From assembly GCA_025617375.2 (NCBI GenBank), contig JAMYGW020000001.1, positions 868,001 through 932,000 of the forward strand: DNA of 64,000 bases. The letters run 5' to 3'. A program made the translations under genes and the position numbers. How positions within the stretch are numbered: the first letter of the stretch is position 1; the number at the start of each line of letters is the position of its first letter. The notes beneath the pieces were generated by a model. That model did not search any database and was not told the DNA's origin. It was given only the letters and a program-made list of their open reading frames with translations. Source of the DNA: Acarospora socialis (Eukaryota; Ascomycota; Lecanoromycetes; Acarosporales; Acarosporaceae). Of the stretch, positions 4,347-64,000 are shown piece by piece.

Positions 4347-5654
4347 GGCTGTGGCCAATAGATGTGGCTTTGAGAAAACAAGTTAGATAGTCTGATTGAC
4401 ACGAGAATGGTGGCGGCTTGTGAGATTACCCTATTCGCTCCCTGATACTAATTTCCGGCGGTCCTGTCTAGTATTTAATGAGGACTCTGTATCATTCTCA
4501 AATCTGTGACAGCAAAACATAGTGGATGGAGAATGGGTTCTTTCCGGTGGGACAGACCTATATCGGCCGAGACAATAGGCAGATTTTTCAAGGCCGAAGA
4601 CCGAAAGCAAGTGTCGCACAGCAGCAGAAACAGATGGTCATTGAGTAAGAATGCGAAGTGGCACGACAGGCCGTAAGACGGGCGACTCATAAGGGCGTTC
4701 CACTGACCATATCTTTTCCTTTAGAATCTACAACGGGAGCAAGGCTGAACTGTCGCCAATGCACCGGGCCCAGCTGTCGAAGCCCGGACACCGCATATGC
4801 AAGCCATCACGCAGCTTGACCTCCCTCGTACAAGAATACATTTCCGGCCTCGACACCCTATTCACATGCTTTTTGTCGTCGTGCACAACATGTGGTCTTT
4901 GACCTACTGCACCTTTCAACAAAGAAGGTACGGATTGTCTGAGAAACGCACAGTGCAATGAACAGATAGTGAAGTTGCTGTCCGTCCGTAGCTTGCTGAG
5001 AACATCTGGGCGCAGGAGGTCATGTTTCGTCGCCTGGCAGCCTGGTGGGTCAGTCAAGGTATCACACACAACGCTGTGCATTGGCCAGGATGTATGTATT
5101 CGAAGGACATAGCAGTGCTTCCCAACCGTCCGGCTCTACCTCCCTAACACCGCGGTGACATTAAGGGGGCTCACCGGCAAGGCATCTGTACAAATGGCTA
5201 ACTCTTTTCAACCTAAACTTGGTTACGGGCTTAGTTGCATTGCCATTGCAAATACAACCTTGTGCCGGCTGTAGGGAGGTACTAGGAGAAGGTCGCAGCG
5301 AGGTAAAATCTGTGGAGCGATTGTCCATGGCATCAGTACAAGGAGTAGAGGGACAGGTAAGACTTCGTTGCCTTGTAAGGCAGCCACATGTGAGGCCGGG
5401 TACTAACTCCAGTTGAAGGTCTATCTATATTCTAGGTACTTACGATTATGCATACGTATACTCTCGAAGGCTGCCTTGAAAAGATAAAGTAGGGTGATTA
5501 AAGCGAAGAGCCGTAGCTTTACACCAAGGCTCTAGCAAGCTATCCTGAGATCCGGTAGCCCTGCCTTTCCCCTCTCTGCATTTGACATCGGCTGGCAATC
5601 AGCGTGGTAGGTTGAACACAGCATAAAGCACAGGACTCTCAAGATACAGTAATA
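4347..5654. other. Gene-free stretch between dioxygenase and transposon
   Basis: No frame here resembles a known protein. Short frames exist (for example 4728-5081 on the minus strand), but their composition is not protein-like. The first few hundred bases presumably carry the dioxygenase promoter. The sequence is of normal GC and CpG content up to the transposon edge. Confidence 0.5.
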
Positions 5655-5656
5655 TA

Positions 5657-5747
5657 CAGTCGGGTCAGAAACTCTGTTCCATCCACACCGTAGGCGAAAA
5701 AACCACCACTGTTTCTAGTAAATCCTGCCACCCCCATATTCACCCAC
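5657..5747 (+). repeat. Left terminal inverted repeat (91 bp)
   Basis: Matches the reverse complement of 14742-14832 over its whole length with three single-base differences (C/T, G/T and T/C). It keeps CpG and CpC sites, unlike the element interior. The flanking TA is at 5655-5656. Confidence 0.9.
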
Positions 5748-7142
5748 AAAATCATGCACCCACAAGGCCAATTGACACCCACTGAGCCCTATAACAACAG
5801 TCAGAATATCAAAGAGTAAAAAGAAGAATTTTAAGATGAAAGTCTCATCAAAACTGATCCTGAAAGACCTCAGACATTCTCTCTTGTTTTTATTATTTAA
5901 GAATGTTGAGAACATCAATGTTGATGAATTTAAGAACATCAACACTGTCAATTTGATGAGAAAGAATTCAGCTAAAGTCTCAGTTATATTTCTCATTCAT
6001 TGAACTGTTTTTCTGAATAAGACAAAGCAGTATTTTAATGTCAAGATAATTGATTTTATCAATTTTAACTATTCAACATTTCTGACAAACAAGCAGATCA
6101 GATTGAAGAAAAAAACTTGATTAAAGAAATATTGAGTGCAACAACAGCAGATCAGAACAGAACTGTTGTTCAATGAAATTTAAAAACAAAATATCATGAT
6201 CTTGAATCTGAAGAATGTTAAAAGATGAATCAATTTAAAAACTATACTTCTGATCTGACATGAAAACAAGAAAAAGAGTATTCAGATGTTTATAGACATC
6301 AAATTTGCACAGAGAACAGTTTCAAAATCTGTTCAAGACTTCTTTACAGATGACAATAAGTCAGAGTTCTCAGAAAAAAAAGAAACTCTCTTTTGAAAGA
6401 AAAAGATAAGTCAATTGCTTTCTGTAGAACTTTTATACTAATTTTACTTAAAAAACAACTACAAACAAGTATCAGATAGTCATGAAGAAACAAAAGAAGC
6501 TGAAATTGAAGTTGAACAATCATGTGAAACAGTTGATACATTGATGACAATGTGAGAATGTGAAGTGCAAGAATAAGAATGAAAAATGCTTGATGCTAAA
6601 AGAAAAGCATCATGTTCTGAATTCTAATCATTTTACAGTTTGAAACAAGATCATTAGCAATGATCAAGTCATCATTGAAAGTTCTTCTCTTTAAGTACTT
6701 TACATACTTAATTGATTCTCTTCTTCAATCTCTGAGTCTACTTCACAGTCTGCTTTATCATCTGCTTCACTTTTCACATCATTTTCATTCTCTGTGTCTG
6801 TTCATGTTCATATGAGACAGACATCATTGATGTCATCAATGTCATCAATATCATCAATGCTTATGCAGAGTTCCTGACAGTACTCATCATCATACATGTC
6901 TTTTTTATTTTATCTGTCTTCATCATCATATCTGTCATTCTATCAGCATTCATATGCTGCTTTATCTTCTCTGTCTTCTTCACAATATTCTATGCATTAT
7001 TCAATGCATTTTTCTCATTCATCATTGTCTCAGCTATCTCTGAATTCTTCTTCAAAGTCTGCTCTGCAGTTTTCACATTGCTTATCTTCACTGCAATTTG
7101 TTTTATACAAAAAGAAAAGCAGTTCTGTCAGCAGTGACAGCA
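5748..7142. other. Left arm of the DNA transposon, content unidentified
   Basis: This 1.4-kb arm lies between the left inverted repeat and the nested LTR element. Up to about 5,870 it still has CC pairs; beyond that it becomes free of CC, GG and CG. Plus-strand translation around 6,300-6,570 is rich in Lys, Glu, Ser and Asp (for example VQDFFTDDNKSEFSEKK). The stretch 6,720-7,140 consists of TCA/TCT-rich sequence that reads as a Ser-rich frame on the plus strand or an Asp/Glu-rich frame on the minus strand. I cannot identify a family. It may be the front part of a second, plus-strand element gene whose tail lies beyond the LTR insertion at 13.24-13.53 kb. Confidence 0.45.
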
Positions 7143-7147
7143 CAGAA

Positions 7148-7496
7148 TGTTATGTCTCAACTGAGATTTCTCAGTTATAGGGCTAGAGTTTGTGCTCTTT
7201 GATATAAAGATTCAAAGATTCTAGATAAACAGTAACTTTGTATTGTATAACTAGATGAGTTAAACATGATCATTTTCATAAGAGAAATGACTTTACTATA
7301 TAGTGAGTCTGCTTGCTGACCTCATTGTCAAGTCTGTTGAGACAGCTCACTTATGTGACTCATTGAGCTTGCTTGTCAAACTCATTATCAAGCATATTGA
7401 GATATCATGTGACTGTCATTTAAATTTCTTCTGAATATATGCTTCTTGTGTGTATGCATCAGTTTGTTTTAAACTTATTCTGATTTAATCATAACA
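7148..7496 (-). repeat. LTR (3' LTR by element orientation)
   Basis: A 349-bp direct repeat of 12,882-13,230, with TG...CA ends. It shares long blocks such as the stretch following CTGAGATTTCTCAGTTATA with the other copy. It retains a few GG and CC pairs that have been lost elsewhere in the block. Confidence 0.88.
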
Positions 7497-10400
7497 TTAT
7501 TTTTTTCTTCTCAGATGCTAGTTCTCTAGAATCTATATAAGTGAGAATATTCACATTGTTTTGTCATCAATGATGATGCTTTTTAAAAATTTCAATTGTC
7601 TAAGAATTGCAAAGAAAATTCAGATTGATGACATTCTCATTTTGTTTTCTTGTGACTATTGTGTCTGTTGTGACATTGACTGTTTTGTAATGAAATCTTG
7701 ATCAAAATGCAATAAGTGTACTCACTGTGATCACTCATGTGTCAGTATATTGTGAAAGTCTCTCAATAAAATTCATCTTTTGCTTCAAAAGAAAATAAGT
7801 AAGACAAACAGCAAACTGACAGTCAAGTATGCTGAGTTTACTACACTTTTCTCAAAAATTGTGTGTCTTCAGAAAACACTGAATCAAATGAATCACTGTG
7901 TCATGCAAAAGACTGACTGTCTTGTTACTGAACTTAATAGTGATAATGATGAAATTGAGAATGAAGATTCTTAAACAATATCATAACTTATTGACTCAAT
8001 ATCATTATTTTTCTGAACTAATATTGACTTTTTTTCTCAAAATACTGAAGTGTTCTTGCACAGTTCTTAAGATTCTTTTTGAGTTTCTAAATATTTTTCA
8101 AGATGTTATAATCTTTTCACTTGATGAGATAATGAACTTTTTCACTAATCATTTTCTTTTTTAAAATATTCTCAACTTCATATTCTTTTTCAGATTTAAC
8201 AGATATTTCTGTAATTTGAAGTGATATGAATTGATTGCAATGTTGTAACATGAATGCATGAAATACTGAGTGTATTCTCATTTTCTTGAGTAAATCTAAC
8301 TCATAGTTTAATTTCTTGATGTTTCATATGATCTTGAATGATTCTATGCTCTTGTTTTTCAGTTTCTTGCTTCTTTTCTTAATTTGCATATTGTTCATTT
8401 TTAAATATATTCTTTCTTCTTTTTTGAATAATTTTACTTCTGTTGTCTGTTCTATCTGCTGTTTGATCTGTTTTGTCAGATCTTGATGCAGTTTCTTCAT
8501 CTGTGTGATATTTAAAATCACTTTTTGACTCTGTAATTCATGTTCTTTGAGATCTTGTTATATCTTTGAGTCATAGTCATAATTCACATAGAAAGATGTC
8601 TCTTTCATGATCTCATTTCTTGTGTTGTTGTACACAAACTATATCATTGATAACAGTTGTACTCAGTTGTTCTGATTCTTGTTAACATAGTGTTTTAAGT
8701 ATATTTTCATTATCTGATTCATTCACTTGCTTTGTTCATCTGTCTGTGAATGATATACTGTTAATATCTTGTGTTTTATTTCAAGTTCTGCTGTAAGTGT
8801 TTCTCAAAACTTACTTGTAAACAGTTTGTCTCTGTCAGTGATAAATTTTTTTGATAGTTCATGATTGTTAATTAATTCTTGTAATATTGTATATGTCAAT
8901 ATTGATGCTGTTGCAGTTTCTTTGAATGAAATGAACATTGTGTACTTGATTAATCTATTCACTATGATCAATATATTATCAAATTTTACTTTTCATGTTG
9001 AGTTCTTAGATGATGATAGTTTCATAATGAAGTTCATAATAACTGATTCTCATGATGTGTCTGATGCATCTAATCATGTTACTTTGTTGTATTGTTTATC
9101 TTGACTGATCTTGTTTCTTTAACATGAATTGCATACAGCAATTATCTTAATGACTCAATTTCTAAAATCACTAATATTGTGTCTTCTTTGCATTAAATCT
9201 TTGATGCATTTAACTTCTAGATGTTCTTCAGTTCAACTGTAGTGACATATTTATATGAGTTTTTTGTTCATTAAGAAAGCTTACTTTATCTTATACATCA
9301 CTGCTAAATTCTTCATAAGAACTTCATTGTCATCTTTGCTCAGAATTTCAGCATGTATCATTTGTACATTTTCATGATTGAGTCATCTGCTCAGAACATC
9401 TGCTTCATTATTCTTATTATTTTTCTTGTAATAAATTCAGAATTCATAGTCTGTCAACTGTTTTGTTCAATGAATCTGTTATTAATTGAGTTGCTTTGTT
9501 GTTGTGAAGTTTCTCAGATTCTTATGATTCATATAGATCTGAATTGACTTGCTGATCTCTGCAAGATAAGATCTTTAATTTTGCAGTGCTTTCACTATTA
9601 CAAGAAGTTTCTTGTCATAAATCTCATATCTTTTCTCAGATTCTGATAACTTTCTAAATTGATATATTATGAATCTCTGTTGTCTCTTTTCAATCTAATA
9701 TAAACATGTTTTTACTGTGAAATCTGAAGCATCAGTTTTCAGTGTCTTTTTGTATACTGAGTTGAGTATTCTCAGATGTGCTGTTTTGCTAAGACTTCTC
9801 TTTAATATATGAAATGCATTTTTCTGTTCTTTATCTCAATGTTATTTTTTGCTTTTGTGTGTCAAATGTGTTAATGATTTTGCAATTCTTGCATAATTTG
9901 AAACAAACTTTCAATAATAGTTCATCAATTTTAGAAAGATCTGTACTTTCTTGATCTCTTTTGATATTAGTCAGTTTTTGACTGCTTTTATCTTCTTTAA
10001 ATTCTTCTCAATCTGTTCAGATCAAATCACATAGTTTAGAAACTTAACTTTCTTAATTTTAAATCTGCTTTTTGACTTTTTCATGTACAGAACTCTCTCA
10101 TTGAGCTTTGTCAATATCTTGTGCACATACTCTTGATGTTCTTCAAGATCTTCTGAGTATATCAGAATATTGTTAAGATATATGATCACAAAATCATTGA
10201 GATATTCTCTTAATATGTCATTGATTAATCTCTGAAAGATGACTGAGACATTTTTTAACTTAAATAACATAACAGTGTACTCATAGTGTTCATATTTCAT
10301 TCAAAATGTCATTTTTCATTCTTTATCTTCTTTCATTCTAACTTAATAATAGACATTCTTAAGATCTAAGCTCATGAATTATTTAGTTTTATTTAATTAA

Positions 10401-12881
10401 TCTTGCAACTCTTCTATCAGCAGTAAGAAATAACTGTCTCAATGAGTTATCTCATTAAGTTGTCTGTAATCAATACATAATCATTTCTTGTCATTCTTCT
10501 TTGATACAAATAGAATTGAATATTCTGCTGATGACTTTGATGATTTTATGAATTTTCTCTTTAAATTCTCATCAAGATAAGTTCTTACTTTCTTGAGTTG
10601 ATTCTTGCTCATTGAATATAATGATATTTATTTAAATTGCTTTCTGTTCAATAACAGTATCTTATGATTTTATAACTTGTGTTCTGACAAGCTTATTTCT
10701 GATTGTTTGAAGATCTCATATGTGTTTTTGACTGCATATATTTCTTTTATAACTCAATTAATTCATAAATTCTTTCTGCATAATCAGAACATTCTTAGTA
10801 CTGCATTATATCTGATTGATCTCATAATATCAAATGTTATCTCTTGTGAATTTTCAAGAATTGAGATCTTCACACAGATTTTCTCATCAATTCTTTCAAT
10901 GACTTCATTTGTCATGTGTATGTTGAATGAACAGCACACTCACTGTGTCACTAATTCTAATATATTGACTACTCAGTAATTCATAATATTACTGTTTGCT
11001 TCAGAATTCATCAATGCATTAATATGATGTTCATTAATTATAATCTTGATTCATATTCTATGATCATTGTTCATTTTCTGAGACATTGCTAGCTTCTTGT
11101 TCTCTAGTTTTGTTAAGAAAGCTTTTTATTTTTTGTTTCATTTTGTTGTTTGATTTGTCTTCAAAGTTCTTAAAATCATCTTGATTCTCTTCTGATCATA
11201 AGATTTGCATGTTTTAGACTGTGTTGCTTGATGTGTTTTTTTGAATGTAGTTGAAATTCATATTGATCATATTTCTTCTACAACTGACTCTCAAAGACTT
11301 TTACTCTTTGCAGAAATTCAGATGATATATATTCTTCACTGAAAATTTATCTGTCTTCATTCTGCATGATATATTCTTCAAGTAAGTGTATCTCAATCTT
11401 GTGACTTTTTGTTGTTTATACAAGAGATTTTGACAATACTGTGTTGTCACTGTTGAAACATTCATCTTTAATAACTATCATCAGCTTTTCTAGCTAATCA
11501 TATGTTTTTTGTTCTTTTGCACTCTTGTGTTGTGCTTTTCATTTTTAAGTTTGTATCTCTTGTTCAAGCTTGTGCTTCTTGAATCAAAGCTTTTCTTCTT
11601 TTAACACTTGTCATTGATTCTCAGAATGCTGACATGCTGTCTTCAGTTTTATGTTGATTTTTTATTAATTGATTTCTTTTTGATTCACATTCAAATTCAA
11701 AACAATTCAGATGCTATCACTATAGTCTTTTTCTATCTAAGTATTGTAAGTATTAACTTCTTCAATCTCAGTCTCTAGAACACATAGTTCTTTTTTTACA
11801 GTGTTGTTTGATTTAGATCATTCTGTAATATTGTAAGTTTCTTGCTTTTGATGTAACTTCTTTAAATAATATCTGATCTCATTCTTGCTGCTCATGTATG
11901 TTCAATACATGTTGTTGTAGCAAGCTGTTCAGCTAAGATTGTTGTGCACTACTTTTTTAATTGTGATTGCAGCTTTCTTTCTTTCTTTTCTGAATTTCTT
12001 GCAATTCTGTGCAAGATGTTCAGTAATATTGCAATTGTAGCATCTTCACACTTCTTAATTGCTCAGAGACTTCTCTTTTGAGAATCATTTTTTTTCTTGT
12101 AATACTTCTTCTGATCTCTGTATCAAAGATTGATCTTGTTTCATTGTATTGAGATTCATGAAATTCAGATAATGTTGTTTTTAATTTTCTCTATTAATTT
12201 GTTTCATTTATTTCTGATGTCAGTAGTCTCTTTTTTTCATCTATTGCTCTCATTGATAACTGTCTATTGTGATTGTTTTGTTGATAAGTTTTTACAGATT
12301 GTTCAGTCTGTTGCTTCATGCAATTTTGTCTTTGATAAATTTCTTTAAATCTCAATAGTAAGTTGATGTTAACTGATTCAGATTTCATTGCATGAGTATC
12401 ACTATCTGTTGAAACTCTGTTGCATATTTGACTGCAAATTCTTCTTGTTGTAATGTGTGAATTCTTTGTTCTGTCATATATTTCTCATTAATTATCTCAA
12501 AAATTCTTCTCAGCTTCTTCTTGAACTGCATTCAGTTTTTTATGCAAGATGTATTCTGTTCTTGTTCAGAAATGCTTTTAATTATGAACTTATTGAGCTG
12601 TGATTTGATTCAGTTAAATGCTGTGTTCTTTATGTAGAATGTTGCAAATAAAACTCTGTCAATATTGCTTTCAAACTTCTTCTGATTAAAATTGACATAC
12701 AGATTGATTTGAACAAGAAATTGTCTCAAATTTTGTTGATCTTCTGTAAAGTTCTCTGAAGTCTTGACTTTCAGTACTTTGTAATTGATGTTGATTATCT
12801 TTGTTGATTTAATACTCTGTGACACATCATCTGAGATTGATTCTTTGAATGACATTCTTTATATTGTAAGAGTGTTTAAAA

Positions 12882-13230
12882 TGTTACATCTTAACTGAGA
12901 TTTCTCAGTTATAGAACTAGAGTTTATGCTCTTTGATATAAAGATTCAAAGATTCTAAATAAACAGTAGCTTTGTATTGTGTAACTAGATGAGTTGAACA
13001 TGATTATTTTCATAAGAGAAATGATTCTACTATATAGTGAGTCTACTTGTTGATCTTGTTGTTGAGCTCATCAAGACAGCTTGTTCATGCAATCTGTTGA
13101 GCTTGCTCATCAAGCTCATCATTGAGCATATTAAAATATCACATGACTGCTGTCTAAATTTCTTCTGAATATACACTTCTCATGTATATGCATCAGTCTG
13201 TTCTAAGTTCATTCTGACTTGATTGTAACA
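12882..13230 (-). repeat. LTR (5' LTR by element orientation)
   Basis: A 349-bp copy of the repeat at 7,148-7,496, same length and same TG...CA ends. It is followed by the second copy of the CAGAA target duplication at 13,231-13,235. Confidence 0.88.
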
Positions 13231-13239
13231 CAGAACTCA

Positions 13240-13535
13240 TGAAGCTTCTATATTAGTATATAGAATAATTTAAGAAGTAAGTTTCAGAGTACTTGATGTT
13301 GCTGAAGAATGCATACAAATAGTTGCAAGATCAGCTGTATAATGTGAAACAGATAAAAAAGATAGAGATTCAAGACTGAAAAGAGTTGAACATTTCTTTA
13401 AATCTAGAAAAACAGTTAAAGAAGAGAGTTAGAGAGTAGAATAAAGAGAAAAGAACTACAGATGATATGAAAAAAAAAACTGATGCTGTTAACTCATTAA
13501 TGCAGTTAGCAACAGTTGCAGAGTTTCTAGAATCT
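13240..13535 (+). pseudogene. Tail of an unidentified plus-strand gene of the DNA transposon (coiled-coil-like)
   Basis: Just beyond the LTR element, plus-strand translation gives a Lys/Glu/Gln-rich, heptad-like stretch: pieces such as LLKNAYKQLQDQLYNVKQ, a KEELN-like middle with basic residues, then DAVNSLMQLATVAEFLES and a stop. Two internal stops are of the kind expected from TGG or CAG codons after C-to-T/G-to-A mutation. The direction is opposite to the transposase, so this should be a second gene of the 3.1-kb element or part of an older insertion. Its 5' part would lie left of the LTR element (5.8-7.1 kb). No family is recognised. Confidence 0.45.
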
Positions 13536-13559
13536 TAAATAGTATTAAATTTATATATT

Positions 13560-14640
13560 TCTATCTTCTAAATCTATCTACAACTCATAGTCATAGTTAT
13601 AGTTATTGTCAGTAACTATTAACTCTGTCTTTATGTATACACTTCAAAAATGTGTTTCTGAATGTTTGTTCTTATTGTATTTCTTCACTGTCAGTCATAT
13701 AAATTCTTCAAAGTCATTCTTATACTTCTTTGCAAGATCTTTATGTTGCTGCATTCACTGTTTAAAAATGATGAACAACTGTTCAATGAGATTGTAGTCA
13801 GATGAGTAAAAAGAAAGAAAAACAAGTTCTACATTGATTTCAGTACATATGTCAGTTAGTTTTTAGTAATATATTAATAAATAAACACAGAGAAATCAGA
13901 AGACATATCTTGAAATGATGTATAGATGCATTATTTATAATAAGAACAGATTTTGATCTCAAAAAAGAACTGCACTCTGACAGAATCTCATTTTGTATGA
14001 AGAAATTAAACAAGATTTCTGTTATAGAATTCTGTCTAATTTTTTATGTTATGTATTTATTGACAGTGTATGTCAACAGTACACTTCATTGTTCACTTTG
14101 TTTCAATGAGATTGATGTTGAGACTCTCATTTCTCAATAAGCTCAGTCAAACTTTCAATTCTTATTCTGTTCATTTGCAGCTGACTCATCAATAAAGATA
14201 AGCTGATTTGCAGTTCAATTGACTAACTGTACAAGTCATTCTGCATATAGTTCATTATTTTGTTGAACAGCTTTTTGTTGTAGTTATTAGAATCACAAAT
14301 ATTAATTATTGAATCACTAAATAGAAGTTCTTATCTTCTTTTATATATGTTTTATTCTCTTCAGAGTAGTAATCAATGTAGACTTGAATACATTGATTTC
14401 AAATTTATCTCAAAGAAATCACTTCATCTTGTCACATTATGTTCAGAATCTTTTCTCAAGATATTCAATTAGAATCTTTTTCATTGCTGATGTCAGAGTT
14501 CTAGAACAATCAGTCTTTCTAAGTTTGAAAATCTTAGAAGACTCTCATATCTGCTGATTTCTTTGCATCTTCTAAATTTGTCAAGTAGACATCTCTGTGT
14601 TCTTGTGAATCAATGAAATTGACATTTCACAGAACAATTG
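13560..14640 (-). pseudogene. Decayed Tc1/mariner (IS630-like) DDE transposase
   Basis: Reading the minus strand from about 14,640 downward gives a DNA-binding-like start and then DDE landmarks. LIFIDESAANEQNK (near 14,205-14,160) holds the first catalytic Asp; SVLIINNASIHHFK (near 13,950-13,905) corresponds to the second-Asp motif usually read VMDNASIHH; SSDYNLIEQLFIIFK (near 13,815-13,770) holds the third acidic residue in the usual SPDxNPIE context. The second catalytic Asp is now Asn, and the SP and NP prolines have changed, as expected from the C-to-T/G-to-A load. Several stops and at least one frame change between the second and third motifs make it inactive. The protein would have cut and rejoined the element at TA sites. 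Confidence 0.75.
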
Positions 14641-14741
14641 ACTGTTGATGAGGTCTCTAGTGTACTCAGACAATGGGTGAGGCATTGTTGATGTATGGAG
14701 TGCAGTCATGGAGGTTGTGGACTTTGTTTTGTGGTGGTAGG

Positions 14742-14832
14742 GTGGGTGGATATGGGGGTGGCAGGATTTACTAGAAAAAGTGGTGGTTTTTTCGCCTACA
14801 GTGTGGATGGAACAGAGTTTCTGACCCGACTG
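14742..14832 (-). repeat. Right terminal inverted repeat (91 bp)
   Basis: Reverse complement of 5,657-5,747 with three differences. The TA at 14,833-14,834 follows directly. Confidence 0.9.
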
Positions 14833-14834
14833 TA

Positions 14835-61551: not shown

Positions 61552-62190
61552 CGAGACCGTTTTGCGCGGTTCAGTTCTTAGTACTTATCGAGGCGGGCCT
61601 GGTCAGACGTCCTGCGGTGAGGACTTGAGTTGTGGTCTTTTCTGACTACCATCAGTCAGATATAGTCAGGTCTCTGACGCCCGCCTGGAGAAGATGTCAG
61701 AGATCCAGAAAAGTCGACGGTCTTTAGACTGCTGCTGCAATGGAGGTGGGCAAGATCCTTTGAGACGTTATCCAGGTGTGGAATGCAGCCGATGACCCCA
61801 TCACGCCAAAAGGTGTGTGATTGCGTAGACGACATGACTGGGACCTGGCGCAAAAGAGTCTTTCGAGGCCGAATTTCCGGCGAGTGCCTCAATAGTGTCA
61901 GCCAATGAAGGCAACCGCCTAAGATCCTGTTGCCGGGAAGATTGCACGCTTGACGGGCGACTAACGTTAGTTAGCTTTCCGTTTTCGCTTTTGGAAGGAG
62001 AGACTTTTACGGAAGAACGGCATCTTTCCTTCCTTTGCCGATATAACAGATAAGAGTAAGTTACGGTACTTTCGAAAAGCCTGAGATGCCTAGGTACGGG
62101 TTCTCATACAGAGTAAAAGGAGAGCTCAGTCGTACAGTGACTCAGCGTGTTCGGCGAGCATTTATTACGGTGGACGATAACGAGGTTACC
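61552..62190. other. Intergenic region ending at AT-rich block
   Basis: Upstream of the transporter; includes its promoter. Normal composition up to about 62,190. No gene seen. Confidence 0.5.
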
Positions 62191-64000
62191 GACACATCAA
62201 ATTTTTTTCAAATTTTCGCAAAGTGTTAATGAATATTCACCATTAACAACACATAGCCATAGATTGTAGTAGAGAAATCATGATCTATAAGTAGATAATC
62301 AACATTCTCATTGTTGTATGAACAAACTCATCAACTACAACAATGATCATCTTCATCTCAATCATCAATGATATGATGCAAGCACAGAAAGACAAAGTAA
62401 ATACTTTTTAGTATGAAGACTGATCTGAGAAACTGATTGTATGAAGATATATGATAGTGAATTTCAATTCAACAATGTTCAGACACAGATTCTGAAGAAG
62501 TGAGAAAATAAAGTGAAAATTGAAATATAATTAAAAAAAAATCACATCATGATCAGCATGCTGCAGCAAACTTCATATATTAAAGTAATTATTATACAAT
62601 TCTGATTTGTACAATCTACAGCAATATATAACATTACATATTACTGACATCTTTTTAGTGAGAAAGAGAACAAGAAAAAATGTGTCAACTGTGATAAAAG
62701 AAATAATTTATTTCAAGTATTACTCTCTGAAATCTAAGTTGTATGATATTAATGATGTATAGAAATGTATTTCTATATCAGAAAATTTTTGAGATATTTG
62801 CAGCAACTGTCACTGATATGATCACATGATCAGATGTGATCACAATGTAAATATTAAGATTAACAAAATCAAAAAAAAGAAGAAAAAGAAGAAGCAGAAG
62901 AAGTAAACAATTTGAATGTGTTTGAATCATATAACTTGAGCATTAGTCAAATATTTTAAATAAAAAATAGATATATATTAATATAACAAGATAACAAGCT
63001 GTCAAGAAGTGCAGTGTTTTAACTGCTTTCATTGTTCTAATTATCTTTAATATCAGAATCTAAATTGTATGAATAGATTAAGTTGACTACAGTTAACTTG
63101 TTCAACTAATCAGTCTGTACAGTCAATGATGACAACAGTGTATGTTTTTAGCACAAGTATTCTATATATCTCTCAATACAAGTACACAAATCATTTCTTG
63201 TGATCATCAACTCTCATACAATACATCAACAAACTATCATCTGAAGAAATATCAAACTCTGCAGCAGTAAAGTCTTTTAAAGTTGTTAATTGATCTTTGA
63301 ATGATGTATCTTTCTGATATAAAGATTAATAGAGAATTTTAGAAATAAAATTGTATGATTTATTTAAGATGAATTGAATGATTAAGTAACATTCAATTTG
63401 ATTTTTTGAGAAGACTTCTTTTTTTATTCTTTTTTCTTGATCTTTATCTTTGTATCTTCATCAGTCTTCTTTATCTTGATCTTTTTCAAATTATATAATT
63501 CATTCTTCACAAAAGCAATCAATCACAACTTGTATGTATGATTTGTTTTGATGCAATAATCTCTCAATAAAGTTGAGACATTCAAAATCTCTGTGACTGC
63601 TTTGTCTTCAATATGTTTCAGATCTGTCTTAATATTTTATGCAACTGTAAAACAGAAGAGATCATAAGAATATTGTATAACTGAAGAACATTTGATTTCT
63701 GAAAAAATGTCATTTTGTATGAAAGATAACAGATCATTAATGAGATGATTATTTAACAAAAATGTACAGTGTTGTTCTGTACAATATCAAAAGATTTGAG
63801 TTAAAAAAAATTTATATAAATTGTGATGATGTCAGAATTCAAATCACTATATAGTTCAAACTTTCTCAACTTCTTTTCATCATCAGAAGTTTATGAAAAC
63901 TTTTGTCATGCAAGAATGATGATTGTGCAATGTTTAAAAGCTCAACTGTTGATGATTATTGATGAAGAAGTCATATAACTGCTTAGAGCTGTTATGTCAG
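62190..64000. repeat. AT-rich, mutated repeat-like block running off the window
   Basis: From about 62,190 composition changes abruptly to AT-rich; beyond roughly 62,260 I see no CC, GG or CG pairs, the same signature as the transposon interior at 5.9-14.6 kb. No frame is recognisable. The most likely content is one or more decayed mobile elements whose other end lies outside the window. A short inverted pair, TGTTAATG...CATTAACA (62,224-62,247), sits at the edge and may be an element terminus, but no second copy is visible here. Confidence 0.65.

Follow-up and report, generated by a model that had tools for sequence, protein, structure and literature searches.

The stretch of the Acarospora socialis genome analyzed here, 64,000 nucleotides of contig JAMYGW020000001.1 (GenBank assembly GCA_025617375.2, positions 868,001 to 932,000 of the forward strand; referred to below as the window), contains two blocks of transposon sequence from which the dinucleotides CC, CG and GG have all but disappeared (Table 1). 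The first block lies in a DNA transposon with terminal inverted repeats into which a long terminal repeat (LTR) retrotransposon has been inserted, and the second belongs to another repeat family. In what follows, CpS denotes cytosine with C or G as its 3' neighbor and CpW cytosine with A or T in that place; comparisons within the genome cover 31.15 Mb in 38 contigs, with 66 loci (276 kb) examined at sequence level.

Table 1. Features of the window that carry or border the depleted blocks (window coordinates)
Feature	Position	Strand	Remarks and basis
DNA transposon with terminal inverted repeats, LTR element inside	5655..14834	.	Inverted ends; mostly CpS-free block
Left terminal inverted repeat, 93 nt	5655..5747	+	97% complementary to 14,742-14,834; CC kept
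Block 1, zone without CC/CG/GG except 2, 0 and 2	5869..14651	.	Counts, shuffles
Nested LTR retrotransposon, probably Gypsy-type	7146..13230	.	LTR pair, genome copies
First LTR	7146..7496	.	LTR pair; contains 3 of 4 exceptions (7,180, 7,181, 7,320)
Second LTR	12880..13230	.	LTR pair; 64 of 351 columns differ from first, all transitions
Right terminal inverted repeat	14742..14834	-	Pairs with 5,655-5,747; GG kept
Second repeat family, start of element, continues beyond window	62166..64000	.	Homology of 10 copies begins here
Block 2, no CC/CG/GG	62259..64000	.	Counts, shuffles

Both blocks are multi-copy transposons. Seven other long matches to the left part of the DNA transposon start at positions equivalent to window 5,647 to 5,669; the section of the nested LTR element from 8,001 to 10,000 recurs at 39 other places with 82 to 85% identity, among 40 scored of 381 candidates; and a genome search with the family whose end lies at 62,166 gave 41 matches, one of them being the copy in the window itself. 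The nested element is probably of the Gypsy type, since in a relative, L025 (C14:277266-280748), the coding order places RVT_1 ahead of an integrase core. This relative of the heavily mutated LTR family is GC rich (GC 0.476; observed/expected ratio [O/E] for CG, 0.69), and its reverse-transcriptase match contains one TGA. A further transposon place, with a DDE_3 domain (L065, C10:927501-929500), has five TGA stops.

From 5,880 to 14,640 (8,761 bp; GC 0.287), where the initial annotation had noticed a near-total loss of CC, GG and CG with few exceptions, mainly in the LTR at 7.15 to 7.5 kb, we counted two CC, no CG and two GG (O/E 0.01, 0.00 and 0.01). The survivors are CC at 6,873, GG at 7,180 and 7,181, and CC at 7,320, so that three of the four do lie in that LTR; the interval from 7,320 to 14,652 is the longest stretch of the window free of all three dinucleotides. 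CA (604; O/E 1.56), TG (776; 1.54), CT (694; 1.29) and AG (434; 1.20) are in surplus, TA is low (651; 0.60), and in the remaining window the ratios are close to 1 (CC 0.96, CG 0.91, GG 0.95). Expressed as (CC+GG+CG)/(CA+TG+CT+AG), the CpS index amounts to 0.0016 in block 1, 0 in block 2 and 0.73 from 14,761 to 62,160. Block 2, which lies outside the region singled out by the initial annotation, persists beyond the window end: the adjoining 2 kb of the contig again contain no CC, CG or GG. While both blocks are AT rich (GC 0.29 and 0.26), the chance that they merely show what any AT-rich DNA would show is negligible: in 1,000 shuffles the sum of CC, CG and GG was 483 to 599 for 5,869 to 14,651, versus 4 observed, and 66 to 114 for block 2, versus 0. 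The dinucleotide GC, moreover, stands at its expectation in block 1 (180; O/E 1.00), which means that strong-strong dinucleotides have not been lost in general. The shuffles and the retained GC rule out a composition artifact, and the depletion is far stronger than the AT content would lead one to expect.

The coding capacity of the decayed repeats is limited accordingly. Open frames lacking Gly, Pro and Trp and drawing Arg from AGA alone, as had been remarked from inspection, are indeed the rule: the 23 stop-free stretches in block 1 that reach 60 amino acids or more contain no Gly, one Pro, no Trp and 43 Arg, all 43 encoded by AGA. In the listed reverse-transcriptase matches of all types (150 scored of 435 candidates), internal stops are mostly TGA (418 of 499, with 60 TAA and 21 TAG), as codon logic predicts, because changes at CpS turn CGA and TGG into TGA, while changes at CpA yield TAA and TAG.

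Comparison of repeat copies showed how far the process has gone in old elements. In the 2-kb cores of 20 Gypsy-type copies no CG remains, and CC and GG together number 61; the 190 pairs of these copies differ by 56,561 transitions and 2,592 transversions. A total of 163 dinucleotide columns hold both CA and TG, the two exits from CG, and contain TG 1,715 times, CA 1,174 times, TA 269 times and CG never. Relative to L025, C-to-T changes per cytosine (summed over 24 alignments of the 20 copies, four of which were aligned in two pieces) reach 0.71 at CpC, 0.49 at CpG, 0.26 at CpA and 0.30 at CpT, the last two values being overstated, since the many transversions and reverse changes also seen show L025 not to be ancestral. 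Counted by cell, with one alignment per copy, CG of L025 has become CA or TG in 3,220 of 4,195 cells (both strands are taken, which makes CA and TG equal by construction) and TA in only 317, since a single hit leaves the opposite cytosine in front of A, where it is mostly spared. Where L025 has CC before A or T, 62% of the copies' cells read TC and 1.5% have kept CC. Similarly, all 64 differences between the two LTRs of the window are transitions, among them 15 CA/TG swaps, and in the second family all 10 fetched copies lack CC, CG and GG over a 1.6-kb core. Near-saturation is thus seen in two families.

When CpS was exhausted by simulation in host sequence, the resulting ratios came near those of both blocks: CC, CG and GG fell to 0 and TA was low. 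Simulated exhaustion of CpA gave the opposite profile (TA 1.83, CC 1.28). The GC content of the CpS-exhausted sequence, 0.349, exceeds the observed 0.287 and 0.264, a shortfall that weak mutation at CpA and CpT would account for. The dinucleotide counts and the copy comparisons rule out canonical CpA-directed repeat-induced point mutation (RIP). The standard RIP indices have a blind spot for mutation of the CpS type: they are 0.64 (product), 1.65 (substrate) and -1.02 (composite) for block 1, compared with 0.72, 1.17 and -0.45 for 14,761 to 62,160, and the usual cut-offs would class these blocks as RIP negative.

CpS depletion is found in three repeat families, and in the copies read it stops sharply at the element ends. 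Pooled over 10 copies of the second family, CpS density next to the element is normal, with 56 to 81 sites in every 50-bp bin across 500 bp outside; inside the element the bins contain 60, then 13, and then 0 through 1 kb. The free zone begins 24 to 92 bp inside the shared homology end in this family and 214 and 183 bp inside the transposon ends in block 1.

Direction and context of mutation were read in a family labeled LINE-type (long interspersed nuclear element) on the basis of long frames and an RVT_1 match. It has near-identical open-frame copies, two of which (L027 and L029) hold 6 and 7 CG versus 150 GC each and retain CC and GG. The polarity reference consisted of 3,723 columns agreed on by seven copies (L026 to L032), with which 22 other copies were compared. 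In these 22, C-to-T changes affect 473 of 3,616 cytosines at CC, 33 of 256 at CG, 288 of 13,244 at CA and 279 of 10,234 at CT. The contrast is sharper in the six young copies (99.4 to 99.9% identity), with 39/995 at CC, 3/72 at CG, 5/3,641 at CA and 3/2,820 at CT, that is, 42/1,067 at CpS versus 8/6,461 at CpW, an approximately 32-fold difference (Fisher P = 2e-28). Apart from these, the six contain two reverse transitions and one transversion. One further copy, L034 (99.41% identity), was kept outside the young set because of its six reverse transitions and six transversions; with it, the counts are 46/1,245 and 13/7,538, and the ratio is about 21. Even the seven reference copies differ from one another in this way, their 30 differing columns consisting of 16 GG, 9 CC, 2 CG and 3 CpA/CpT and nothing else, so that 27 of 30 are CpS transitions. 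The main mutated contexts are therefore CpC and CpG and not CpA, as the initial annotation had proposed from composition, and the young copies suggest that the process has been at work recently. The same annotation had held that C is removed only before C or G, to saturation; its CpS rule stands, but "only" was too strong, as CpA and CpT are targets too, if weak and secondary ones: their rate in the six young copies is about 1/32 of that at CpS, and such hits have accumulated in old copies.

The base that is mutated in CC is the 5' one: in the 22 copies, changes number 134/1,456 at ACC, 188/1,140 at TCC and 86/539 at GCC, while CCA is near background (42/2,175). Both strands are affected (C to T, 521; G to A, 623). 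These observations bear on an APOBEC-like single-strand deaminase acting on reverse-transcribed cDNA, a thought invited by CC being a favored site of APOBEC3G. Such editing is ruled out by the 3'-base context and the action on both strands, and we regard it as extremely improbable; the element with terminal inverted repeats is affected as well, and the order of strands is near random in eight LINE-type copies, although the lack of same-strand runs beyond chance in these eight is in itself uninformative. Deamination following methylation of CpG alone is likewise ruled out, as CC and GG have been lost too and CpC changes account for the 39 of 995 in the young copies, and so is methylation induced premeiotically (MIP), the reversible methylation without mutation of Ascobolus, as here the sequence itself is altered.

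A combination of two processes, in which CpG is lost through maintenance methylation and deamination and CpC through a RIP-type mutator, would fit the LINE-type copies with an intact frame, such as L027, in which CpG stands at an O/E of 0.05 while CC (0.59) and GG (1.07) remain. We nevertheless consider it unlikely, as CpC and CpG rates in the young copies are alike within error (P = 0.76, from few CpG sites). CG offers a target on each strand, and equal rates per cytosine should already make it disappear before CC.

A profile search of the genome for the C5-methyltransferase domain PF00145 gave four matches in three genes. The first, at C3:855595, has a long open frame with DUF7893 and DNA_methylase, plus a BAH match slightly below the cut-off, and resembles structure chain 9bap (E = 1.3e-191), which we take to be DIM-2; we call it DIM-2-like. 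The second, at C8:614409, matches 7r76 (entry name Rad8; E = 2.5e-67), presumably DNMT5, and is termed DNMT5-like. A MAT alpha-box, a Pre-SET domain and a chromo-shadow domain are also present, Pre-SET being carried by DIM-5 and chromo-shadow by HP1. Together, the MAT alpha-box and DIM-2-like genes suggest a filamentous ascomycete. The third gene, at C2:1420221, has a plausible GT-AG intron and a DNA_methylase match without its middle part; among solved structures it finds general C5-methyltransferases only (best E = 6.6e-12). A methylase domain missing its middle is given for RID/Masc1 in PMC4352252, and by this feature and by exclusion we consider the gene putatively RID-like. Candidates for the host RID and DIM-2/Masc enzymes, which the initial annotation had suggested looking for, are thus at hand.

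The DIM-2-like and DNMT5-like enzymes leave room for a history without any active mutator, in which 5-methylcytosine at CpC and CpG in heterochromatic repeats deaminates slowly over many generations; a near-total loss could accumulate gradually in this way. It would have to be reconciled, however, with the near absence of other changes beside the 42 CpS changes of the young LINE-type copies, with a depleted zone that, in all 10 copies, falls short of the end of the element, and with Zymoseptoria tritici, where methylated CG is reported without a high mutation rate (excerpts of PMC8016269), and on balance we find it improbable. The same species provides the precedent for a DIM-2-dependent mutator active in vegetative growth: its Dim2 acts mitotically, and C-to-T change in its repeats is tied to a C5-methyltransferase (PMC8016269), as may be the case here. 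The DIM-2-like gene with its long open frame would suit such a mutator with CpS in place of CpA as its context. The known case, on the other hand, hits CA and not CG, and while the present data do not separate mitotic from premeiotic action, we think this explanation doubtful.

We consider it probable that the repeats have undergone RIP-type C-to-T mutation with an inverted target rule, CpS, which has come near saturation on multi-copy transposons. A cytosine before C or G is mutated to T on either strand, a rule that the data show directly, as they do the near-saturation in two families and the sharp limit at the element ends of the copies read. CpG would become TpG or CpA and then be mostly safe, because the cytosine of the opposite strand now precedes A; CpC would become TpC, or CpT where the downstream C changes first. 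With CpA and CpT hit weakly, the end state would be a sequence without CC, GG and CG in which GC is kept and CA and TG are raised. RIP is triggered by duplication, between fertilization and meiosis; here too the trigger may be repetition itself, and the agent may be the RID-like C5-methyltransferase, acting premeiotically and recognizing the adjacent base in a changed manner. Whether this amounts to an undescribed RIP specificity, in which a single RID-class enzyme requires a strong instead of a weak next base, treats CpC and CpG equally and is still active, we put at an even chance.

Several observations weigh against this explanation. CC, GG and CG persist at the ends of both transposons (5,655 to 5,868, 14,652 to 14,834 and 62,166 to 62,258), which are likewise repeated; these spared ends resemble an edge effect of homology recognition and may reflect one. 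The DDE_3 transposon place is depleted only in part, with 95 CC, 105 GG and 62 CG in 2 kb with flanks. The most diverged LINE-type copies (L038, L046 and L050; 82 to 92% identity) show a weak contrast, L038 having C-to-T changes at 60/563 CA, 25/157 CC and 52/426 CT, and of the 22-copy totals (288 changes at CA, 279 at CT) these three supply 155 and 139. A single process acting at equal rates offers no obvious explanation for L027, which is nearly devoid of CpG (six CG) with CC and GG kept; the CpG-poor open-frame element may have evolved to cope with the mutator, or CpG may be subject to a process of its own. Finally, the third methyltransferase gene owes its RID-like label to a gap in the methylase domain and to exclusion.

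The process resembles RIP in its transitions, its action on both strands and, apparently, its limits, and departs from it in context. Near-exclusive transitions, a hallmark of RIP, are found in the Gypsy-type pairs, the LTR pair and the six young LINE-type copies, and action on both strands, another hallmark, in the 22 LINE-type copies, while the typical CpA-led preference is absent (CpS 42/1,067 versus CpA 5/3,641 in the young copies). As in Neurospora crassa, C:G-to-T:A transitions affect repeats on both strands and leave stop codons in the genes of elements, unique DNA appears to be spared, and DIM-2-like and putatively RID-like genes are present. The order of contexts in N. crassa, however, is CpA>CpT>CpG>CpC (excerpts of PMC5496416), whereas here CpC and CpG lead and CpA and CpT are about 32 times weaker; the suspicion voiced in the initial annotation that the context differs from Neurospora RIP was well founded. 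In Trichoderma reesei, CpG is a leading target as it is here, but there CpA is about equal to CpG and leading, with CpC last (PMC5496416). The MATE elements of Aspergillus nidulans show CpG and then CpA (PMC2621366), sharing the lead of CpG and differing in that of CpA. Outside the Ascomycota, Microbotryum (Basidiomycota) also has C-to-T changes in transposons for which the base after C is decisive (CpG/TpCpG; PMC2621366 and PMC4352252), but CpG alone is affected and the excerpts of PMC4352252 report no RID gene, whereas here CpC is hit equally and a putatively RID-like gene is present. The nearest published hint of CpC comes from Rhizoctonia solani AG8, where the published table gives CpC single-nucleotide polymorphisms (SNPs) a closer spacing than those of the other three CpN classes (PMC4014442), yet those SNPs are heterozygous and denser in genes than in repeats, and the authors state a CpG bias.

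Further published preferences are CpA, CpT and CpG signatures in ten genomes (PMC4352252); for S. nodorum, CpA accompanied by depletion of CpC, CpG and GpG (PMC2621366); CpA in M. graminicola (PMC4522978); CpA in Monilinia, together with double changes from CpG to TpA and from CpC to TpT (PMC8959702); and a CpA preference common to RIP-like defenses, the conclusion drawn from screening 1,239 species of fungi (PMC12543289). In a limited library of open-licence papers, we found no report of CpC as a preferred RIP target, and the novelty of the rule is therefore provisional. If the rule holds, the indices in use miss RIP of the CpS kind, and it may be present in other genomes now listed as RIP free, contrary to the view of a shared CpA preference. 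The repeats described here, with a rule opposite to CpA and an almost absolute footprint, would offer a natural contrast for studying recognition of the base adjoining the target by RIP methyltransferases.

Among the 150 scored matches of 435 candidates, reverse transcriptases of the LINE type (about 750 bp, profile positions 5 to 204) occur in one cluster per contig, at C1 2.65-2.80, C2 1.47-1.50, C4 1.99-2.00, C5 1.54-1.59, C6 0.65-0.69, C7 1.32-1.36, C8 0.205-0.240, C9 1.25-1.26, C10 0.187-0.265, C11 0.927-0.931 and C14 0.011-0.085 Mb. By this arrangement, the clusters look like centromeres.

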